In this document: one piece after another, positions 4,270 to 27,309 of the stretch
Numbering within the stretch: position 1 is the first letter of the stretch
How the letters are laid out: each line of letters begins with the position of its first letter
NCBI RefSeq assembly: GCF_029194005.1
Contig: NZ_JARFVA010000001.1
Span: 372,001-436,000, forward strand
Direction: 5' to 3'
Source: Flagellimonas okinawensis
GTDB taxonomy: Bacteria > Bacteroidota > Bacteroidia > Flavobacteriales > Flavobacteriaceae
DNA length: 64,000 bases
Translations under genes and position numbers: made by a program
The notes under the pieces: generated by a model
What the model was told of the DNA's origin: nothing
Database searches by the model: none
What the model saw: the letters and a program-made list of their open reading frames with translations, nothing else

Positions 4270-4991
4270 AATCCAAAAATCCAAAAATCGAAGAGTCAGG
4301 TAGGTCCACTCCTTCCAATCTTCAAGTCCTTTTTGAAGACAATCACCTAATCGTGGTAAATAAGCGCGTGGGTGACATTGTTCAGGGGGATAAAACTGGT
4401 GATGCTCCCTTAAGCGAAGTTGTTAAGCAATATCTAAAAAATAAATACAATAAACCAGGCAATGTTTATTTGGGCGTGGTGCATCGATTAGATCGTCCCA
4501 CATCGGGCATTGTACTCTTTTCCAAAACATCCAAGGCCTTGCCTCGTCTCAATAAAATGTTTGCTCAAGGAGAGACCAAAAAAATGTATTGGGCAGTCGT
4601 TAAAAATGCCCCTCCACAAGAAAGTGGGTCGTTAACCCATTGGTTGGTGCGCAACCCTAAGCAAAATAAGTCGTATGCTCACAACAAGGAAGTGCCTGAT
4701 AGCAAAAAGGCCGAGTTGGATTATAAAATCATAAAGAAGCTCGACAACTATTTTTTGTTGGAAATTGATTTGAAAACGGGAAGACATCATCAAATAAGAG
4801 CACAACTCACAGCCATAGGATGCACTATAAAGGGAGATTTAAAATATGGTGCCGACCGAAGCAACAAGGATGGCGGAATTCATCTACACGCAAGGAGCTT
4901 GGCTATAGTACACCCTGTACAAAAAGAGCCTGTAGCCTTTTTGGCCCCACCACCAAACGACCCTATTTGGAACGCCTGTCTTAACGAGTAA
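4266..4991 (+). CDS. RluA-family 23S rRNA/tRNA pseudouridine synthase
   Basis: Isomerises uridine to pseudouridine in structured RNA. The 241-residue protein has the RluA catalytic motif GVVHRLDRPTSGIVLFSK, whose Asp is the nucleophile, followed by the RluA-type KTGRHHQIRAQL motif and an INKR-like opening (HLIVVNKRVGDIVQGD). No S4 domain precedes it, as in the short RluA/RluC-like proteins. The start is GTG at 4266, overlapping the previous stop as GTGA; no in-frame ATG lies before the conserved core. The 3' end overlaps the convergent neighbour by 11 bp. The exact RNA target cannot be read from sequence. Confidence 0.9.
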   Translation: MKSKNPKIEESGRSTPSNLQVLFEDNHLIVVNKRVGDIVQGDKTGDAPLSEVVKQYLKNKYNKPGNVYLGVVHRLDRPTSGIVLFSKTSKALPRLNKMFAQGETKKMYWAVVKNAPPQESGSLTHWLVRNPKQNKSYAHNKEVPDSKKAELDYKIIKKLDNYFLLEIDLKTGRHHQIRAQLTAIGCTIKGDLKYGADRSNKDGGIHLHARSLAIVHPVQKEPVAFLAPPPNDPIWNACLNE

Positions 4992-19169: not shown

Positions 19170-19211
19170 GTGTTTTACGATTAACAATTTATGATACAAG
19201 CAATAAGAACA

Positions 19212-20255
19212 ATGGGCAAACTTTTTACCATAACAGGGGCATTGCTCTTCTTTTTGGCCTGTGGCGATAATAGCGACCCTGCCAAAAATTTTTCCATTCA
19301 ATTGGAAAACAAAGCAATACAACAAAATCAACAACTTGGTGTGGCCTTAAAGAACAAAAAGGATGTCCAAATATCGGACCTGCACTATTATATTGATGGG
19401 GAAGAGATGCCCGTTGAAAATGGCAAATTAACCTTGAACTTACCCACGTTGGGCAACAAGACCTTGATCGCCAAATTTAAAATTGAAGAGCAGACGGTTG
19501 AAGTTGAAAAGGACTTTAGATTACTTTCTGCCAAAGCACCCGAGGTATACACCTATGAAATTGTAAACAGCTATCCGCATGATACCGGGGCATACACACA
19601 AGGTTTGGAGTTCCATAACGGCACCTTATACGAGAGCACAGGCAAGAAAGGTGCTTCCACTGTTCGTAAAGTAAATTTTGAGACCGGTGAGGTGATTCAA
19701 AAAATTGAAATGGATGCATCCGTATTTGGGGAGGGCATTACCATTATGAAAGATAAACTATATCAACTGACATGGCAGAGCGGAATGGGGTATGTTTACG
19801 ATATATCCAATCTCGAAAAAATTAAAAACTTTACCTATGGTAAAAGTCGTGAAGGATGGGGGTTGTGCAACGATGGCCAAAAAATATACAAAAGCGATGG
19901 CACCGAGAAAATATGGATTCTGGACCCGGAAACCTTGGAGGAACAAGCTTATATAGAAACGGTGACCAACAAATCCATATTTAACAAGGCCAACGAACTG
20001 GAATATGTGAATGGTAAGATTTATGCCAATGTTTATCAAAAGGAAAGCATGATGATCATTGATGCCACTTCTGGAGCCATTGAAGGTGTCATTAATTTTG
20101 GTGGACTCAAAAGCAAAATAACAAAAGGTCCTGAATGGGACGAGGGCAACTCGGTATTGAACGGGGTAGCTTTTCATCCAGAAAGAGAGACCTTTTTTAT
20201 CACTGGTAAAAACTGGAATAAATTATTCGAAGTCAAAATCAGTAAAAAACAATAA
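19212..20255 (+). CDS. Glutaminyl-peptide cyclotransferase (plant/bacterial beta-propeller type), lipoprotein
   Basis: Converts N-terminal glutamine of peptides to pyroglutamate in the periplasm or at the surface. From the ATG at 19212 the signal is MGKLFTITGALLFFLAC with a lipobox Cys; an ATG at 19191 is also possible. After a ~100-residue Ig-like part, the C-terminal ~250 residues match the Glu_cyclase_2 propeller: SYPHDTGAYTQGLEFHNG, LYESTGKKGASTVRKV, FGEGITIMKDKLYQLTW, GREGWGLC-like DG repeats and NELEYVNGKIYANVYQ, ending in LNGVAFHPE. The next gene starts in its stop codon (TAATG). Confidence 0.9.
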   Translation: MGKLFTITGALLFFLACGDNSDPAKNFSIQLENKAIQQNQQLGVALKNKKDVQISDLHYYIDGEEMPVENGKLTLNLPTLGNKTLIAKFKIEEQTVEVEKDFRLLSAKAPEVYTYEIVNSYPHDTGAYTQGLEFHNGTLYESTGKKGASTVRKVNFETGEVIQKIEMDASVFGEGITIMKDKLYQLTWQSGMGYVYDISNLEKIKNFTYGKSREGWGLCNDGQKIYKSDGTEKIWILDPETLEEQAYIETVTNKSIFNKANELEYVNGKIYANVYQKESMMIIDATSGAIEGVINFGGLKSKITKGPEWDEGNSVLNGVAFHPERETFFITGKNWNKLFEVKISKKQ

Positions 20256-20647
20256 TGAAAATTTACTCGGAGACTTTTGATGTAATCCCCTCGGACCTGG
20301 ATGAACTGAACCATGTAAATAATATTAGGTATGTAGAGTGGATACAGGATATTTCCAAAAAACATTGGACCCATGTTACCACGGATAAGATACAAGAATC
20401 CATGGTCTGGGTAGTTAGAAATCATAATATCACATACCACAAATCGGCGATATTGGGTAATACGATTTTAATAAACACTTTTATCCAAAGCAACAAGGGG
20501 CCTATCTCCACCCGTGTGGTGGAAATTAAAAACAAAGACACCAACGAATTACTGGTAAAGGGTATTACCGAATGGTGTCTTTTGGATGCCCAAACATTTC
20601 GTCCCAAAAGGGTCCCAGAAGAGGTGCAAACTCTTTTTATGAACTAA
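20255..20647 (+). CDS. Acyl-CoA/acyl-ACP thioesterase, single hot-dog domain
   Basis: A 130-residue 4HBT-type protein that hydrolyses acyl thioesters in the cytosol. The conserved opening of the catalytic helix, SDLDELNHVNNIRYVEW, places the Asp and the HVNN loop as in YbgC/FatA-like hot-dog enzymes. Strands VWVVRNHNITYHKSAILGN, ISTRVVEIKN and GITEWCLLDA complete the fold. Its start overlaps the preceding stop (TAATG), so it is translated with the cyclase gene. Whether it acts in lipid synthesis or CoA recycling is not shown. Confidence 0.88.
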   Translation: MKIYSETFDVIPSDLDELNHVNNIRYVEWIQDISKKHWTHVTTDKIQESMVWVVRNHNITYHKSAILGNTILINTFIQSNKGPISTRVVEIKNKDTNELLVKGITEWCLLDAQTFRPKRVPEEVQTLFMN

Positions 20648-21023
20648 ATAGTTCCAAAAACAGCAACTAAAATGCTGTATTTCATCGAAATAAGCTCAAA
20701 AACCCTATAATCCGACCTTTAAAATTTTGAAGCGGGCATAACAAATTGTAATATAGTAGTGAACCAAACACGAACTAAACCTATTTGTTGAACCTGCTAA
20801 ACACAAACTTTACCCCTTTTTACCCTTCAAATTTTCCAAAATTCAGCTCCAAAAAATCGAACTAAAAATCGGTGTGCTAATTACAGTTAATCCGATTTTA
20901 ACGATTTTTTATGGAAAAGTGTAGGAAAATAGCCCGATTTAGGGAGAAACCCATAGTTTTTTTAAGGGAAAACTGTAATGAGTTTTTTTTGTGCGTTAGT
21001 AACTTGCAATCAGCAAATTGCAC
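20648..21023. other. A+T-rich intergenic region with a nested palindrome
   Basis: No convincing ORF, tRNA or known RNA in 376 bp. Its main structure is a nested inverted repeat at 20851-20910: the outer arms AAAAAATCG and CGATTTTTT (9 bp) enclose the inner arms AAAATCGG (20865-20872) and CCGATTTT (20892-20899). It could be a terminator (U-rich 3' arm) or a regulatory hairpin. A TAACTTGC at 21000-21007 is a possible imperfect -7 box for the LytTR gene. Confidence 0.5.
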
Positions 21024-21758
21024 ATGGAATACACCTACAACATAATTGACTCGGATGCCTCTTCGAAGCTTCAATTGCAGCTTTATTTGGAAGAGTATGA
21101 TGATTTGGTGTGTGCCGAGGTAGATACGAACGCTTCAGCCGGATTGAATTCCATATTAAAATACAACCCGGACCTCGTACTTATTAATCTGGGAGAAGAC
21201 GGTATGGACTATTTTCAAATGGTTACCGAACTTAACCAATACATGCAGACCCTACCACTTATAGTAGGTTATGCGAAGACAAAGAAGTACGCCTACAATG
21301 CAATTAAAAGTGGATTTTTTGATTATTGGATATTGCCCCACAACGAGTTCGATATCCGTAAGACCATTTTACGTTTAAGAAAACTTCACCCAAAACAAGA
21401 TACCCCTTCCACCATCTGCCTTAAATCATATAAAGATTACAGGTATTTGGACACCAATAATATACTTTATTTAAAGTCCGACAATAACACAACAGATTTC
21501 TTTATGAAAGATGGAAGTGTTATCAGCGCCTTCAAAACTTTGAAATCTTTTGAGGAAAAATTGCCCAAGGATTTTATTCGGGTCCACCAGAGTTATATTA
21601 TAAACAGTAGGTATGTGTCACGTATCAACTATGGCAAATCCATTTGCAGTCTCAACCACGGTAAAGAGGAAGACCTCCCCTTCTCCAAAACCTATAAAGA
21701 TAAGGTAGACCAGTTAAAGCAAATGCTCTCCAAAACGGCCACAAAAGCCCTTAATTAG
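21024..21758 (+). CDS. LytTR-type DNA-binding regulator with a degenerate receiver domain
   Basis: A 244-residue transcription factor. I use the ATG at 21024, not the TTG two codons upstream. Residues 1-120 have receiver topology (IIDSDASSKLQLQLYLEEY, then PDLVLINLGEDGMD). The phospho-acceptor Asp is replaced by Asn55, and the conserved Lys by Leu104 in FFDYWILPHN, so classical phosphorylation is unlikely. Residues ~135-240 are a LytTR DNA-binding domain: NNILYLKSDNNTTDFFMKDG, LKSFEEKLPKDFIRVHQSYIIN and YVSRINYG. It is followed by a 21-bp-period direct repeat and a small lipoprotein gene, likely targets. Confidence 0.9.
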   Translation: MEYTYNIIDSDASSKLQLQLYLEEYDDLVCAEVDTNASAGLNSILKYNPDLVLINLGEDGMDYFQMVTELNQYMQTLPLIVGYAKTKKYAYNAIKSGFFDYWILPHNEFDIRKTILRLRKLHPKQDTPSTICLKSYKDYRYLDTNNILYLKSDNNTTDFFMKDGSVISAFKTLKSFEEKLPKDFIRVHQSYIINSRYVSRINYGKSICSLNHGKEEDLPFSKTYKDKVDQLKQMLSKTATKALN

Positions 21759-21762
21759 CAAA

Positions 21763-21814
21763 ATTCTTGCAGATTATCGAAGAATTCTAGCAGATTGTCT
21801 AGGAATACTACGCC
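21763..21814. promoter_or_regulatory. 21-bp-period direct repeat, candidate LytTR binding array
   Basis: ATTCTTGCAG (21763), ATTCTAGCAG (21784) and ATACTACGCC (21805) are in exact 21-bp phase. The first two 21-bp units (21769-21789 and 21790-21810) agree at 17 of 21 positions. LytTR regulators usually bind direct repeats with a 21-22-bp period, two helical turns apart, so position and spacing fit. The sequence differs from the motif known for Firmicutes LytTR proteins. It ends 36 bp upstream of a TACTTTAG -7-like box (21851-21858). Confidence 0.55.
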
Positions 21815-21896
21815 CTTTCCAAAAGTACCTCCCTTGCTCTAAATGCCACATACTTTAGCAGCATAAACTTAATACTTACACGAAAAACCTATTATT

Positions 21897-22070
21897 ATGA
21901 AAAAAGTACTTAGCATTTTAGCCATGGCATTATTGACTGTAGGATTCTACTCTTGCGAAACTGAAACTGACGTTCAAGATACAGAAGCCATGTTCGAGCA
22001 ACTTACTATTGATCAAAACGCTACCGATGACGACGAGATTAATCCTGATGATCGAGGTGACAACGAATAA
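21897..22070 (+). CDS. Small acidic lipoprotein, 57 residues
   Basis: Too short for ordinary ORF calling but well supported. ATG at 21897, TAA at 22068-22070. MKKVLSILAMALLTVGFYSC is a textbook signal with a lipid-accepting Cys20. The predicted mature peptide has 38 residues, with 15 Asp/Glu and one Arg, and the C-terminal tail reads DDDEINPDDRGDNE. No family is known to me. It lies directly after the LytTR repeat array and before a strong terminator, so it is probably the regulator's target. A surface-exposed or released signalling peptide, or a small inhibitory lipoprotein for the kinase downstream, are both conjectures. Confidence 0.7.
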   Translation: MKKVLSILAMALLTVGFYSCETETDVQDTEAMFEQLTIDQNATDDDEINPDDRGDNE

Positions 22071-22076
22071 TTAACA

Positions 22077-22301
22077 ATGATTGCTGTATTAACCACAACC
22101 AATTTATTTCGCTATTCTATTACTCTATCTATCTTGCTTATAATGTTATTTTTCTTAGAAGATAAATCTATAACATTGGATAAAAAAGATATTGGTGATA
22201 CATATAAAAAGAAAACGTTGATGAGTGATGTTCGAATAGGTATTTCAAAAAACAATATCTTACGATTACAACGAAGCAACGAGGACAACCGCCAGTTATA
22301 G
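22077..22301 (+). CDS. Possible small single-pass membrane protein, 74 residues
   Basis: It starts 6 nt after the stop of the small lipoprotein and ends just before a strong terminator, so it shares the transcript. The N-terminal SITLSILLIMLFFLED is a plausible membrane helix, followed by a basic tail (DTYKKKTLMSDVRIG and ILRLQRSNEDNRQL). No family recognised. It may be real or a chance frame; position in the transcription unit favours a real gene, the lack of homologous features argues caution. Confidence 0.4.
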   Translation: MIAVLTTTNLFRYSITLSILLIMLFFLEDKSITLDKKDIGDTYKKKTLMSDVRIGISKNNILRLQRSNEDNRQL

Positions 22302-22322
22302 TAGTTGTTCAAAATAGAACTA

Positions 22323-22355
22323 AGCCCCAAGCATATTATGTTTTGGGGCTTTTTT
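22323..22355 (+). terminator. Strong rho-independent terminator
   Basis: AGCCCCAA (22323-22330) pairs perfectly with TTGGGGCT (22343-22350) around a 12-nt loop, followed by five more T. It closes the small-lipoprotein transcript before the histidine kinase gene. Confidence 0.9.
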
Positions 22356-22388
22356 GTTACCTTGGATTATTAAACGAAGCCTTTTAGT

Positions 22389-24473
22389 TTGAAAAACACA
22401 ACCTTTTTAATCTTCCTACTTATTTTTTGGGGATGTTCACAACATCAACAAAAAGAGACTGTCGATAGTAATCCTGAACTCGATTCCATACAAGAATTAT
22501 TAACAATTGCCAAAAAAGCAAAAGAATTATCATCTGAAGACAGAAAAGCTTATTTAAAAGAGGCAGAAGAAAAAGCTTTGGCCTTGCCCAAAGACACTTT
22601 AAGGCTAGAAGAACTCTCTAAAATTTCTTTGGCCTACAAAAATATTAAGGATTCACTAAACTTCAGAAGGTCTAATAGGCAACTTCAAGTCTTATCAGAA
22701 GAAGTTGCGGCGAATAGGATTTCTGGGTATGCGCATTGGGACTTAGGTAGTTTTTTACAATCGCATGGGGTCATGGATAGTGCATTCTATCATTACCGTA
22801 GTGCTTTTAACCAGTTTGATAAACTTCCTGTCGATTCCACCTCCAAATCGCTAAAAGCACGTATGTTTTACAATATGTCAAGGGTGCAAGATTCTTATAA
22901 GGATTATCTGGGGGGAGAAATCAATGCTACGGCTGCCGTTGAAATATTTGATGAACTGGAAGATAATTACAGATTGTTCAATGTGTATAATATGTTAGGG
23001 GTATTGGCCAATGGAATGGGAGATAGTAAAAAATCTATCGATTTTTATAATAAAGCCATCGAATATTTAAACAAAACGGATAGGCCAGATAAAGACATTT
23101 TACTATGGAAAATTCAAAATAATATTGCGAGCAACAATATGAACGAGGGCAATTATGATGAAGCTATTAAACTATATGACCAACTTCTATTGAGCATGAG
23201 TACAGTGGTCGACCCACCTAGTACCTATGAAAAAGCCTTGGGCAGCCTCGCATATTCCTTGTTTAAAGCAAATAAAGATATCTCTCGTGCCGAAGAACTC
23301 TTAAAGCAAGCTTTTGAGCGCAATTCATTAAATGGAGATTTATATGATAGGGCCAGACTTCATAATTTCAATGCAGAACTACTTGCTGAAAAAGGCGAAA
23401 CACCAAAAGCAATCGAACAAGCAAAGTTGGCCTTTGCAATTTCACGGGAGACCTACAATAATGATAGATCTCTAGAAGCACTGAAGCTATTGACCAAACT
23501 AGACACGGCCAATGCTTCGGCGTATGCGGAAGAATACTATCTTTTGGATGAGACCATAAGCGAGGAAGAGCGTACCAAACGGGACAAATTCGCTCGTATT
23601 CGCATGGAAACCGATGATATTATCGAAGAAAACCAAATCCTTTCCAAGGAAAAGCAAGTTTGGGTGGGTACTGCCCTACTGCTAATCATTTTTGGTATGA
23701 CATTTATGGTGATTGTTTCCCTTTACGTAAGCAACAACCAATTAAAATTTAAACAGCAACAGCAGGAGAGCAATCAGGAAATCTATAATTTAATGCTGGC
23801 TCAACAGGGAAAACTGGAAGAGGGCAAGCAATTGGAACAAAAACGTATTTCCGAAGAACTGCACGATGGTATTTTGGGGGAAATGCTCGGTATACGACTC
23901 ATTTTAAGCGGATTGAACGAACGTGAGGACCCCGCTAGTATTCAGCAACGGGCAGCCCTAATAGAAAAATTACAAGAGGTGGAAGAGGAAATACGTACGA
24001 TTTCACATGAATTAAACCACGCTTCGTACGAAAAATTTCATAATTTTATTGTGTCGCTGGAAAGCATGATACACGATATTGAAAAATCCTCAGGTATGTC
24101 ATGTTCCTTCACCTACGACCACAAGGTGCCATGGGACAACCTGTTGGGCGACATTAAAATCAATGCCTACAGGATTATTCAAGAATCGTTGAAAAACTGC
24201 GTCAAACATGCGAAAAGCAAGAATGTTAGCATTTCGTTCCGATCGGTAGAAGATAAATTAAAGCTTACCATTTCCGATGATGGAGTCGGTTTTGACATCA
24301 ATCGGAAAAAGAAAGGAATCGGTTTAAGAAACATAATATCAAGAGCCAAAAAAATAAAAGGTGAATTGGATATAGACAGTAAACTAGGGCAAGGGACCAC
24401 CATTAAATTGACGATTCCAGTAAAATATGTGGATGTCCAACCCTCTAAAGAAATTGATTTTATAAATGTATAG
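22389..24473 (+). CDS. TPR-containing sensor histidine kinase of the NarX/LiaS (HisKA_3) class, lipoprotein signal
   Basis: A 694-residue kinase. The start is TTG at 22389: an in-frame stop lies six codons upstream, and MKNTTFLIFLLIFWGC gives a lipoprotein-like signal. Residues ~30-400 are TPR-type helical repeats (GDSKKSIDFYNKAIEYLNK; GNYDEAIKLYDQLLL) facing the periplasm. A membrane helix at about 425-447 (GTALLLIIFGMTFMVIVSLYV) leads to a coiled coil and the phospho-acceptor His492 in RISEELHDGILGEM. The HATPase has INAYRIIQESLKNCVKHA (N box), ISDDGVGFD (G1) and GIGLRNIISRA. The partner regulator overlaps or closely follows. Confidence 0.93.
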   Translation: MKNTTFLIFLLIFWGCSQHQQKETVDSNPELDSIQELLTIAKKAKELSSEDRKAYLKEAEEKALALPKDTLRLEELSKISLAYKNIKDSLNFRRSNRQLQVLSEEVAANRISGYAHWDLGSFLQSHGVMDSAFYHYRSAFNQFDKLPVDSTSKSLKARMFYNMSRVQDSYKDYLGGEINATAAVEIFDELEDNYRLFNVYNMLGVLANGMGDSKKSIDFYNKAIEYLNKTDRPDKDILLWKIQNNIASNNMNEGNYDEAIKLYDQLLLSMSTVVDPPSTYEKALGSLAYSLFKANKDISRAEELLKQAFERNSLNGDLYDRARLHNFNAELLAEKGETPKAIEQAKLAFAISRETYNNDRSLEALKLLTKLDTANASAYAEEYYLLDETISEEERTKRDKFARIRMETDDIIEENQILSKEKQVWVGTALLLIIFGMTFMVIVSLYVSNNQLKFKQQQQESNQEIYNLMLAQQGKLEEGKQLEQKRISEELHDGILGEMLGIRLILSGLNEREDPASIQQRAALIEKLQEVEEEIRTISHELNHASYEKFHNFIVSLESMIHDIEKSSGMSCSFTYDHKVPWDNLLGDIKINAYRIIQESLKNCVKHAKSKNVSISFRSVEDKLKLTISDDGVGFDINRKKKGIGLRNIISRAKKIKGELDIDSKLGQGTTIKLTIPVKYVDVQPSKEIDFINV

Positions 24474-24507
24474 CCCCCAAAACACAAATACAGTAATAGA
24501 ACCTACA

Positions 24508-25176
24508 ATGAAAACTCTGAGAATATTAGCCATAGACGATCATGAAATGACGATGCTCGGGTACAAATTCATACTCGAAGGCATCCAGTTCGATGGTTAT
24601 AATATTATAGTGGACACGGCAACATCCTACCATTCCGGAAAAAAATTGATTGAGGATTCCGTGAACACCTTTCAGTACGATATTTTATTCTTGGATGTAC
24701 AATTGTTCGCCCCCAACGAAGATCAGCCATACACGGGCGAAGATTTGGGCATATTGGCCCGCAAAATTGTACCGGATACCAAAATCGTTTTCATGTCCTC
24801 TTTTAGCGATAATTTCAGGATAAACAGTATCCTAAAATCAGTGGATCCAGATGGTTATTTGGTAAAGACCGATATTGATCCAAAAACTCTGGAAGATGCG
24901 GTAAAAACCATTATGCTCGACCCACCTTATTACTCATCCAAGGCATTAGGAGCCATAAGAAAGAAAATGGCTAACGATATAGAAATAGACGAAAAGGACA
25001 AGCAGATACTTTATCATCTATCCAAAGGGACAAAAAACAAGGATTTGGAGAAGTATATAAGGCTTTCCCCCTCCTCCATTGAAAACAGAAAACGACATTT
25101 AAAAACCTTGTTCGGAACAGAAAATGAAAACGATCTAGCCCTGATTTTGGCAGCAAAAAACAGAGGTTTTATTTAA
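24508..25176 (+). CDS. NarL/FixJ-family DNA-binding response regulator
   Basis: Partner of the TPR kinase, 222 residues from the ATG at 24508; an in-frame ATG at 24466 overlaps the kinase but adds 14 residues before the conserved start. The receiver has the acidic pair in LAIDDHEMTMLGY, the phospho-acceptor Asp63 in DILFLDVQLF, SSFSD and the conserved Lys in GYLVKTD. The C-terminal ~65 residues are a LuxR-type helix-turn-helix: DEKDKQILYHLSKGTKNKDLE then IRLSPSSIENRKRHLKTLF. Unlike the upstream LytTR protein, all phosphorylation residues are intact. Confidence 0.92.
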   Translation: MKTLRILAIDDHEMTMLGYKFILEGIQFDGYNIIVDTATSYHSGKKLIEDSVNTFQYDILFLDVQLFAPNEDQPYTGEDLGILARKIVPDTKIVFMSSFSDNFRINSILKSVDPDGYLVKTDIDPKTLEDAVKTIMLDPPYYSSKALGAIRKKMANDIEIDEKDKQILYHLSKGTKNKDLEKYIRLSPSSIENRKRHLKTLFGTENENDLALILAAKNRGFI

Positions 25177-25192
25177 GCAGTTTTAGAATAAC

Positions 25193-25219
25193 ATTGACAA
25201 CTTGGAACACTTTGTCAAT
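25193..25219. promoter_or_regulatory. Inverted repeat after the response regulator gene
   Basis: ATTGACAA (25193-25200) and TTGTCAAT (25212-25219) are perfect 8-bp arms around 11 bases. There is no U-run, so it may be a binding site for a dimeric regulator as easily as a weak terminator. It lies 16 bp past the regulator stop and 130 bp before the next gene. Confidence 0.4.
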
Positions 25220-25351
25220 TATTAAAAACTAAAACTAACTAAAAATCCTACAAACAAGGGAAAACCCCCAGAATTTTTAAGGATAATCTTTAATCGCGTG
25301 CAAAAGATTCATCCTAACTTTATGTTGAAAGAAAATTAGAATTCTATCAAC

Positions 25352-26014
25352 ATGTCGTTCTCCTACAATTACAACGGTAACAACAACCAATCTGGACCCA
25401 AAATATTTGAAGGCACTGAAGGATTGGATGAATTTATCAAAAACCTGGAAAGGTACTTCTTTGCAACAGCAAAACTCAGTTGCAAACAAGATGTTGTGCA
25501 CAACAAGCTGGATTTGATTGTTGAACTACATTTTAATTTTAGTATTTCTGATTGTTTACGCCATTTCAACAATGGAGATTGGGGCAGTTACAGTATTTCC
25601 CAAGAAAGTAGTATCAACATGTCGACCACTATGAGCAGAGCCCTTAAAACGCTCAATGAAAAAAGTACCTACCCTGCCGATATATTGGAAACTTCCTTGC
25701 ATTTTACGGACACATCCATAGTGATAAGTAGACTGTATGCCAACAGTATTCCCGAGCATATCGGAGAAATTATTTCCACAATAAGCAAGCATTTCGTCTA
25801 CTTTACCAAAGGGCTGACAGAGATGCCCTATGAGATTTTTGTCCCTATTTTTGAAGACAAGGAAGTGCTTGACAACCAGGAAAAATCCTGCGCAGAAACA
25901 AGTTATTACGAATACTGGGGCCTCTATTTTGACAGTAGTCAAGAACACGAAGCCCTAATCTATTCGTTGGATAAAAAGAGATTTTACGAGGAGAGCATTT
26001 TTCTCTTCGAATAA
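25352..26014 (+). CDS. Uncharacterised cytosolic protein, 220 residues
   Basis: I do not recognise a family. There is no signal peptide or membrane segment. The start MSFSYNYNGNNNQSGPKIFEGTE is polar and disordered. The rest alternates strands and helices (KLDLIVELHFNFSISDC, then SLHFTDTSIVISRLYANSIPEH and HIGEIISTISKHFVYFTKG) and ends in an acidic/aromatic tail. It lies 175 bp behind the NarL-type regulator, with an imperfect TAACTTTA box at 25315-25322, so it may be its own unit or a target of that system. Function unknown. Confidence 0.75.
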   Translation: MSFSYNYNGNNNQSGPKIFEGTEGLDEFIKNLERYFFATAKLSCKQDVVHNKLDLIVELHFNFSISDCLRHFNNGDWGSYSISQESSINMSTTMSRALKTLNEKSTYPADILETSLHFTDTSIVISRLYANSIPEHIGEIISTISKHFVYFTKGLTEMPYEIFVPIFEDKEVLDNQEKSCAETSYYEYWGLYFDSSQEHEALIYSLDKKRFYEESIFLFE

Positions 26015-26034
26015 CAATATTCCACTAGCAAATA

Positions 26035-27309
26035 CTAAGCACTGAACAAAGGTCGCGATTTCATCAAATCGTTGACCTTTTGTTTTATTTCAGCAACTTT
26101 CTTCTCGTTTTCAGCATCTGTGATGATCTCGTCGATAAAGCCAACAATGGTTTCCATATCAGCTTCTTTTAGACCTCTTGTGGTAATGGCAGAAGTACCA
26201 AAACGGATTCCCGAAGTAATAAATGGAGATTTATCATCAAATGGTACCATATTCTTGTTGGCGGTAATATCCGCTTTTACCAATACCTGTTCCGCTTCTT
26301 TACCGGATATATCCTTGTTTCTTAGGTCGATCAACATCATGTGGTTATCGGTTCCTCCAGAAATCACTTTGTAATCCTTATCCATAAAGGCTTTGGCCAT
26401 GGCTGCTGCGTTTTTCTTTACTTGAACCATGTAGTGCAAGTAATCATCGGTAAGAGCTTCGCCAAAGGCAATGGCCTTGGCAGCGATAATGTGCTCCAAA
26501 GGTCCTCCTTGGTTTCCTGGGAATACCGCCAAATCCAATAGACCCGACATTTTCCTCAAGTTTCCGTTCTTAAGTTTTATACCAAAAGGATTATCAAAAT
26601 TTTCTCCCATTAAAATAAGACCACCTCGAGGGCCACGTAGTGTTTTGTGGGTCGTAGTAGTAACAATATGGCAATGTGGTATTGGGTCGTTCAAAATACC
26701 TTTGGCGATCAAACCAGCAGGATGGGAAATATCCGCCAACAAAATAGCACCTACACTATCTGCGATTTCACGGAAACGCTCAAAATCCATATCCCTGGAA
26801 TATGCCGAGGCACCCGCTATGATCAATTTAGGTTTTTCCTTATCGGCTATTTCTTGAATCTTGTCATAGTTTAACATTCCAGTCTCCTCATCTACACCAT
26901 AAAAGACTGGATTGTACAATTTACCAGAGAAATTTACAGGCGAACCATGGGTCAAATGCCCTCCGTGGGACAAATCAAAACCCAAAATGGTATCTCCAGC
27001 GTTTAGGCAAGCATGATAAACCGATGCATTGGCCTGTGAGCCGGAATGTGGCTGAACATTAGCATAAGCCGCCCCAAACAATTCCTTTGCACGATCTATG
27101 GCCAATTGCTCCACTTGGTCCACCACTTCGCAACCACCATAATAACGTTTTCCGGGATATCCCTCTGCATATTTGTTCGTAAGTACGGAACCAGCTGCCT
27201 CCATAACTTGAGGACTTACAAAGTTCTCTGAAGCAATTAGTTCAATACCTTCTAGCTGTCTTTCCTTTTCTTGCGCTATCAGTTCAAAAATCTTGTGGTC
27301 TCGTTGCAT
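26035..27309 (-). CDS. glyA: Serine hydroxymethyltransferase
   Basis: PLP enzyme that interconverts serine plus tetrahydrofolate with glycine plus methylene-tetrahydrofolate, the main source of C1 units. From the ATG at 27309 (preferred over 27318, matching the usual MQRD opening) it has 424 residues. Landmarks are [67 protein letters not shown], and the PLP lysine in [18 protein letters not shown]. No glycine riboswitch is visible upstream. It probably has its own promoter (near-consensus box, 27335-27342). Confidence 0.98.

Follow-up and report, generated by a model that had tools for sequence, protein, structure and literature searches.

Layout of the locus

A stretch of 64,000 nucleotides from Flagellimonas okinawensis is called the window here, and all positions below are window coordinates. 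It contains a block of genes on the plus strand in which a LytTR-family regulator gene is followed by a 138-bp gap, a gene for a small secreted lipoprotein, a second small open reading frame (ORF), a terminator, a sensor histidine kinase with a tetratricopeptide repeat (TPR) ectodomain, a NarL-type response regulator and a gene for a protein of no recognised family. Each element listed in an original prediction on this DNA (LytTR gene, repeat, lipoprotein, small ORF, terminator, kinase, regulator and last gene) was found in the sequence.

21024..21758, plus strand: LytTR-family regulator with a pseudo-receiver domain (Asn55 in place of the phospho-acceptor Asp); Pfam LytTR, 2.1e-16
21762..21810, plus strand: putative LytTR-binding site, half-sites AATTCTTGCAGA, AATTCTAGCAGA and AATACTA at a 21-bp phase; from lag-21 self-match
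21851..21858, plus strand: putative -7 promoter box TACTTTAG, TAnnTTTG-like; a TAnnTT[ATG]G box is common in homologous gaps
21897..22070, plus strand: secreted acidic lipoprotein of 57 residues, putative signal-peptide precursor with C-terminal motif ATDDDEINPDDR; lipobox YSC, acidic tail
22077..22301, plus strand: second small secreted ORF with C-terminus NRQL, seen in the genus of the window only
22322..22355 (approximately), plus strand: intrinsic terminator (stem-loop and T-run) between the peptide ORFs and the kinase
22389..24473, plus strand: sensor histidine kinase with lipobox-like N-terminus, TPR ectodomain, one transmembrane segment, HisKA_3 and HATPase
24508..25176, plus strand: NarL-type response regulator with canonical phospho-site residues; start inferred from homologue alignments
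25352..26014, plus strand: protein of 220 residues without family match, conserved in place in other genera

Next after the last of these genes lies glyA on the opposite strand, and the upstream neighbours of the module encode a glutamine cyclotransferase and a thioesterase. Rfam gave no match across 20600-26200. The block is probably a two-component module for sensing a peptide, shared by part of the Flavobacteriaceae, in which a secreted peptide driven by the LytTR regulator would bind the TPR groove of the kinase.

Conservation of gene order and control region

Conservation was followed in a genus set of 71 Flagellimonas/Allomuricauda genomes and in a family set of 397 Flavobacteriaceae genomes from 237 genera. 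Within the genus, the LytTR gene (E 6.1e-117 or better) and the kinase (E 1e-60 or better) were each found in 69 of 71 genomes, and the lipoprotein was matched in 70, one of these matches (G037) being at chance level. Wherever the LytTR locus of a genome was usable (68 genomes), the lipoprotein lies downstream of the LytTR gene, and the kinase comes next in 67 of them; in the remaining locus (G060) the contig ends first. In G059 the LytTR gene and lipoprotein sit on separate contigs. G036 and G037 lack the LytTR gene and kinase, with only the chance-level lipoprotein match in G037, but we rejected co-loss in favour of assembly gaps as the more likely cause, since glyA of G036 starts 285 bp from the module-side contig end and glyA of G037 was not found. 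Among the 13 best named loci, most of them named Flagellimonas/Allomuricauda, the LytTR proteins are 87-95% identical to that of the window.

At a threshold of 1e-40 a LytTR match was present in 111 of the 397 family genomes (75 of 237 genera) and absent from 286, and the matches split into a close and a distant set. Outside the genus, long loci were retrieved from 40 of 63 close-set genomes (37 genera, about one per genus) and from 20 of 45 distant-set genomes. Every one of the 40 close-set loci has a small secreted ORF and a kinase in the same order after the LytTR gene; the NarL regulator and the unknown gene are each present in 39, the exception being a stretch retrieved only to base 4800. 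The distant set is looser, with the peptide in 15/20 loci, the kinase in 16/20, the regulator in 17/20 and the same outer neighbours in only 2/20. Two of the five distant loci without a peptide (L132, L137, L138, L140, L147) are incomplete stretches (L137 and L147). In L138 and L140 a NarL-type regulator directly follows the LytTR gene, with no kinase or peptide recognised between them or within about 7.5 kb. A search of 345 genomes sampled from the class, a part of which belong to Flavobacteriaceae, gave three LytTR matches at 1e-45, all within that family. Named genera with the locus include Muriicola, Kriegella, Maribacter, Eudoraea, Ulvibacterium, Poritiphilus and Croceitalea, and 78 of 80 named loci contain the peptide, both misses ending shortly past the LytTR gene (207 and 125 bp). 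Conservation of the small ORF beside the LytTR and kinase genes was the point on which the original prediction could have failed, and the ORF is kept in 68/68 genus, 40/40 other-genus and 78/80 named loci.

Some loci depart from this layout in their upstream part. L125 (G102) has two tandem LytTR genes (48% and 55% identical to that of the window) ahead of a peptide gene with repeats. In L091, L093, L095, L100, L103, L116 and L118, all from other genera, the thioesterase and LytTR genes are separated by a gene of about 500 codons whose product looks like a lipoprotein (N-terminus ...CRK[DE]F); the corresponding gap of the window, about 380 bp, is too short for it.

The LytTR protein has a clear LytTR DNA-binding domain (60.3 bits against a Pfam cut-off of 22.6), and its receiver domain scores below the Pfam cut-off (23.5 against 30.2 bits). 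Asparagine occupies position 55 in 67/68 genus, 34/40 other-genus and 14/20 distant-set proteins, and aspartate in 0, 1 and 2, respectively. With Asn in the place of Asp, ordinary activation by phosphorylation is unlikely.

Just downstream of the LytTR gene, a direct repeat at 21762-21803 consists of two 21-nt copies, 81% identical and 21 bp apart, and AATACTA at 21804 continues the phase as a third half-site. This phasing is conserved. Among LytTR-peptide gaps of 110-180 bp, which were kept for analysis in 38 of 40 other-genus and 66 of 68 genus loci, the self-match at lag 21 over the first 62 bases after the LytTR stop codon was 0.474 and 0.552, respectively, while the next best lags reached 0.329 and 0.393; the rest of the gap had no lag-21 peak. 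The genus consensus is AATTCTnnCAGA, repeated 21 bp on and followed by TACTA another 21 bp on. In the distant set lag 21 also came first but weakly (0.327 against 0.307, 13 loci), so that a LytTR site there is uncertain. The consensus of the Bacteroidota -7 promoter element is TAnnTTTG. Of the gaps, 30/38 from other genera and 52/66 from the genus contain a TAnnTT[ATG]G box, which stands at offset 92 in 21 of the former and in all of the latter. Promoter examples from Bacteroides given in passages of PMC6193735 show TATCTTTG, and the LytTR sites described there are repeats of 9-11 bp with 11-12 bp between them and a phase of 20-22 bp. The conserved repeats thus form a putative LytTR-binding site whose spacing resembles that of known sites, and, as far as sequence can tell, their position between both genes supports the earlier proposal that the LytTR protein sets the lipoprotein level.

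A scan of the genome with the tandem site gave 11 matches at up to 2 mismatches and 3 for a reversed control, with a perfect match only at this locus. Within the window, 4 matches were found at 3 mismatches where 1.5 are expected by chance, so weak matches mean little. A perfect tandem site occurring once in the 4.02-Mb genome, together with a gene order kept across genera, indicates that the pattern first described exceeds chance.

The putative peptide precursor and its candidate receptor

The predicted mature lipoprotein of the window is CETETDVQDTEAMFEQLTIDQNATDDDEINPDDRGDNE. The tail motif often resembles ATDGDDxxxDxR[DE], with a CDxC form in its place in some genera and Gly-rich ends in a few. 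The similarity of residues 1-39 to NF050142 (PG1828 lipoproteins) stays below the cut-off (21.4 bits against 50). Over the whole ORF the genus lipoprotein is under purifying selection, with Ka/Ks of 0.29 (1081 pairs in the usable range, which are not independent), and its last 18 codons are freer (0.69).

In 11 of 40 other-genus loci the C-terminal unit occurs in tandem, with periods of 12-28 residues and 2 to 8 copies in clean arrays. Codon positions that vary only synonymously outnumber those that vary in amino acid in 10 of the 11 arrays, such as L106 (10 against 1 of 13), L130 (7 against 0 of 13), L129 (9 against 2 of 12), L116 (8 against 4 of 14) and L119 (11 against 9 of 28). Hence the amino acid sequence of the unit was mostly kept while its DNA drifted. 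The exception is L128 (G464; 2 against 10), an array of about 16 periods that crosses a frame shift and has its later units in another frame; it may reflect decay or slippage of the precursor, or an error of sequencing.

Multi-copy units that are acidic or carry Cys would also suit a precursor of a bacteriocin or of a ribosomally synthesized and post-translationally modified peptide, with multiple cores and its own regulators, and LytTR regulators control bacteriocins in Streptococcus mutans according to passages of PMC6193735. However, the module consists of LytTR protein, kinase, regulator and the 220-aa protein, and its flanks are glutamine cyclotransferase, thioesterase and serine hydroxymethyltransferase. 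Neither a maturase gene nor one for immunity or transport was recognised in module or flanks, to which this search was confined, and we regard this explanation as very improbable.

A lipobox is present in 68/68 genus and 33/40 other-genus precursors, and peptides that carry it should be membrane-anchored. This suits a lipoprotein that serves as an internal envelope reporter, that is, a periplasmic inhibitor or activator of the kinase which binds the TPR groove and reports lipidation, sorting or export, with no communication between cells. ExoR acting on ExoS and NlpE acting on CpxA are the comparison for such a role, and here too the sensor is predicted to be periplasmic and its own N-terminus looks lipidated. 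Precursors of 7/40 other-genus loci, however, have no lipobox and would be soluble, and near-identical tandem units with a fast-changing tail fit a specificity signal better. We therefore think an envelope reporter unlikely, and prefer to see the lipoprotein as the precursor of a signal peptide.

Many genus peptides have Gln before [NS]ATDG, and the units of L106 have RQS, so that an N-terminal pyroglutamate on a processed tail is conceivable. The neighbouring glutamine cyclotransferase (19191-20255; PF05096, 7.4e-91) has a lipoprotein-like N-terminus and matches in 39/40 other-genus loci.

The small membrane ORF of the original prediction is present, but it is better described as a second secreted ORF that recurs inside the genus. 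It begins with a hydrophobic or lipobox-like stretch, varies strongly in its middle part and ends like D-x-R-[EQK]-L; ORFs of this type were found in 44/68 genus genomes by one rule and in 39/45 by a looser one, and tblastn gave no match in the 60 loci of other genera and of the distant set. Its tail is similar to the D-D-R of the lipoprotein, and the ORF may encode a second ligand. A SarA-like Pfam match (7.2e-5, 23.2 bits, cut-off 27) was judged spurious because the ORF is short and secreted. The stem-loop that follows it has a predicted energy of -18.7 kcal/mol (z = -3.14; 1/200 shuffles equally stable), and a consensus terminator scanner did not report it at 22322-22355. Terminator-like hairpins occur in 36/67 genus and 20/40 other-genus gaps between peptide and kinase, where 0.2 and 0.0 are expected from single-base shuffles.

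The kinase begins with a lipobox-like signal sequence (WGC, 22389-22450), which is present in relatives as well, and its periplasmic domain may thus be lipid-anchored besides spanning the membrane. Its HisKA_3 domain scores just below the cut-off (23.7 against 24 bits), and the catalytic His is conserved in 87/87 complete kinases. In the NarL regulator D25, D77 and K134 are found in 89/89 complete proteins and D24 in 88/89; thus the His of the kinase and the DD, D and K of the receiver are conserved in neighbouring genes, as in a HisKA_3/NarL pair. Alignments with homologues of this regulator mostly begin at residue 10-19 of the ORF opening at 24466, and therefore the true start is probably 24508. 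The protein at 25352-26014 has no Pfam or NCBIfam match, and the structural search with its model (pLDDT 75.5) gave no reliable match (best Z 6.0).

A model of the kinase ectodomain (pLDDT 90) is a TPR superhelix of nine helix pairs, from residue 20 to about 420. Its best structural match is LGN (Z 28.0, 340 aligned, 6.3 Å), ahead of the pheromone receptors RapI (Z 25.8, 346 aligned, 4.6 Å) and NprR (Z 24.2, 338 aligned, 5.9 Å). Profile searches matched NprR (7.8e-7) and RapF (3.5e-6), with better matches for designed and eukaryotic TPR proteins. Across other genera the sensor is on average 32% identical to that of the window, and the dimerisation linker 65%. Comparison of 58 sequences shows W117, D118, M163 and N245 of the concave A helices to be invariant and N244 (56/58), N201 (53/58) and Q167 nearly so, with R158, R195, K293, R323 and R360 kept in 42 to 51 of 58. 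Ladders of Asn residues bind the backbone of peptides in certain other TPR proteins.

Distances for parts of the peptide were compared pairwise with those for the sensor, kinase core, LytTR protein, NarL regulator, unknown gene and two upstream genes. The genus test had n = 45 (44 named loci and the window), 13 of 57 named loci being left out for an incomplete gene set. For other genera 38 genomes were used, G464 being excluded for its frame-shifted repeats, and the pooled set had 70. In the genus, the tail (last 18 residues) followed the sensor when the other genes were removed, with a partial correlation of 0.207 (p 0.001) in partial Mantel tests, which can be too liberal and are only indicative; the value for the kinase core was -0.182. 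When the sensor was divided by its predicted structure, the tail correlated with the A helices on the concave face (0.278, p 0.001), whereas the convex B helices gave only 0.011 (p 0.43); the difference of 0.267 exceeded that of all 200 random column splits (maximum 0.238). The value for tail and A helices stayed at 0.226 or more when any one genome was left out, and TPR4 had the highest value of a single repeat (0.242). The signal peptide and first 18 mature residues showed no covariation with TPR helices in the genus, and the signal peptide followed an upstream gene (0.485) and not the sensor (-0.171). A separate run with 32 genus genomes of another collection, whose species are largely the same, put the sensor at 0.267 (p 0.002).

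This covariation also bears on the idea of the lipoprotein as a surface protein with a metal-binding or structural role, and as such the output of the module rather than its ligand. Acidic DGDD-like and CxxC-type motifs could bind metals, and the LytTR-type site at the lipoprotein promoter would suit an output. Such a role leaves unexplained the covariation of the genus tail with the concave TPR helices, and also the adjacency of kinase and peptide in 40/40 other-genus loci; we consider it clearly improbable.

Several observations weigh against the lipoprotein as ligand of the kinase. In other genera neither the A helices (0.079, p 0.18) nor the whole sensor (0.025, p 0.39) reached significance, nor did the sensor in the pooled set (0.021, p 0.34); higher partial values came there from the unknown gene (0.235, p 0.002) and the LytTR protein (0.195, p 0.004). 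Inside the genus, the whole mature peptide also tracked the NarL regulator (0.173, p 0.002) and the LytTR protein (0.145, p 0.019), the tail weakly tracked the NarL regulator (0.108, p 0.03), and with the last 12 residues the B helices reached 0.078 (p 0.048). TPR superhelices bind many proteins, LGN is the top structural match, and a shared TPR fold does not by itself show peptide binding. Mean conservation hardly differs between A and B helices (2.47 and 2.33 bits), invariant residues are also found on B helices and after the TPRs, the post-TPR stretch being the most conserved, and conserved acidic residues (D118, E330) lie on A helices as well. In addition, 4/20 distant-set loci have no kinase, with L138 and L140 extending about 7.5 kb beyond the LytTR gene; an outer membrane separates the sensor from the outside; and among the genes of the module neither an exporter nor a processing enzyme was recognised. 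The view of the original prediction that the lipoprotein is a ligand or modulator of the kinase is thus supported indirectly by the tandem units kept at amino acid level, by a TPR fold that resembles pheromone receptors among other TPR proteins and by the tail-A helix covariation of the genus, and is weakened by the non-significant covariation in other genera.

In the peptide-sensing module that we favour, the LytTR protein, with a receiver not subject to the usual phosphorylation, would bind the phased repeats just 3' of its own gene and activate the lipoprotein promoter. The signal peptide would export the lipoprotein, and the acidic C-terminal tail (one unit, or 2 to 8 in-frame units in some genera) would be the ligand part. 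From fold and covariation, this tail may sit in the groove on the concave side of the kinase's periplasmic TPR superhelix and alter kinase activity. The kinase would then signal to the adjoining NarL-type regulator, as adjacency and intact phospho-transfer residues suggest. Sensing may take place between cells or within the periplasm of the producer itself, and the kinase may be switched on or off. A more ambitious form seems to us possible but doubtful: a widespread pheromone system based on peptides in a Gram-negative family, with precursors of one to several near-identical signal units, a Rap-like TPR ectodomain in the kinase and a phosphorylation-independent LytTR protein as dedicated activator, in which the second ORF of the genus, with its similar R-containing tail, is a competing or co-acting ligand.

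Relation to known signalling systems

In RRNPPA systems (Rap, NprR) the precursors are small, secreted and encoded nearby, with the signal towards the C-terminus. The module resembles them in its TPR superhelix of similar size and shape and in its small secreted precursor encoded nearby. However, RRNPPA proteins are cytosolic regulators without a kinase, whereas here the TPR domain forms the predicted periplasmic ectodomain of a histidine kinase; it follows a signal-like N-terminus and precedes HisKA_3 and HATPase. Moreover, the precursor here can be a lipoprotein and multi-copy, and the phylum is different. The likeness, judged partly from a structural model, is one of fold and layout and does not show common descent.

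The agr system (AgrD-AgrC-AgrA) clusters a peptide gene, a histidine kinase and a LytTR regulator, with LytTR-type direct repeats at the peptide promoter. A secreted peptide gene, histidine kinase and LytTR regulator are likewise found in one cluster here, with LytTR-type repeats at the peptide promoter. In contrast to agr, the LytTR receiver has no phospho-Asp that could be phosphorylated, a NarL-type regulator follows the kinase and the sensor domain is of TPR type. None of the six module proteins was recognised by Pfam as an AgrB-like enzyme.

The LytTR Regulatory Systems (HdrRM, BrsRM), as described in passages of PMC6193735, also have a LytTR regulator and similarly spaced repeats at a nearby promoter, and that regulator shares an operon with a membrane inhibitor. 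In the present module the LytTR gene is followed not by a membrane inhibitor gene but by one for a secreted lipoprotein (68/68 genus loci; a small secreted ORF in 40/40 other-genus loci) with its own promoter-like elements, and a kinase-regulator pair comes after it. With ExoR-ExoS and NlpE-CpxA the module shares an exported protein that would act on a kinase ectodomain; the difference is that the TPR part lies in the kinase here, and we know of no modulators of the ExoR or NlpE type with tandem short units.

The original prediction knew of no description of this exact combination, and among the matches listed from the open-licence literature we also found none of LytTR regulator, secreted peptide and TPR-kinase together. 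As far as we found, the parts are of known kinds, while their combination, the multi-copy lipoprotein precursor and the role of a TPR-kinase as receptor are undescribed. To our knowledge, peptide signalling is known mainly from Gram-positive bacteria and its use in Bacteroidota is largely open. The locus offers a concrete candidate for a ligand-receptor pair with natural variants across many flavobacterial genera, and the multi-copy precursors suggest what the signal unit is; therefore, whether these bacteria sense such peptides may be tested directly with synthetic peptides.

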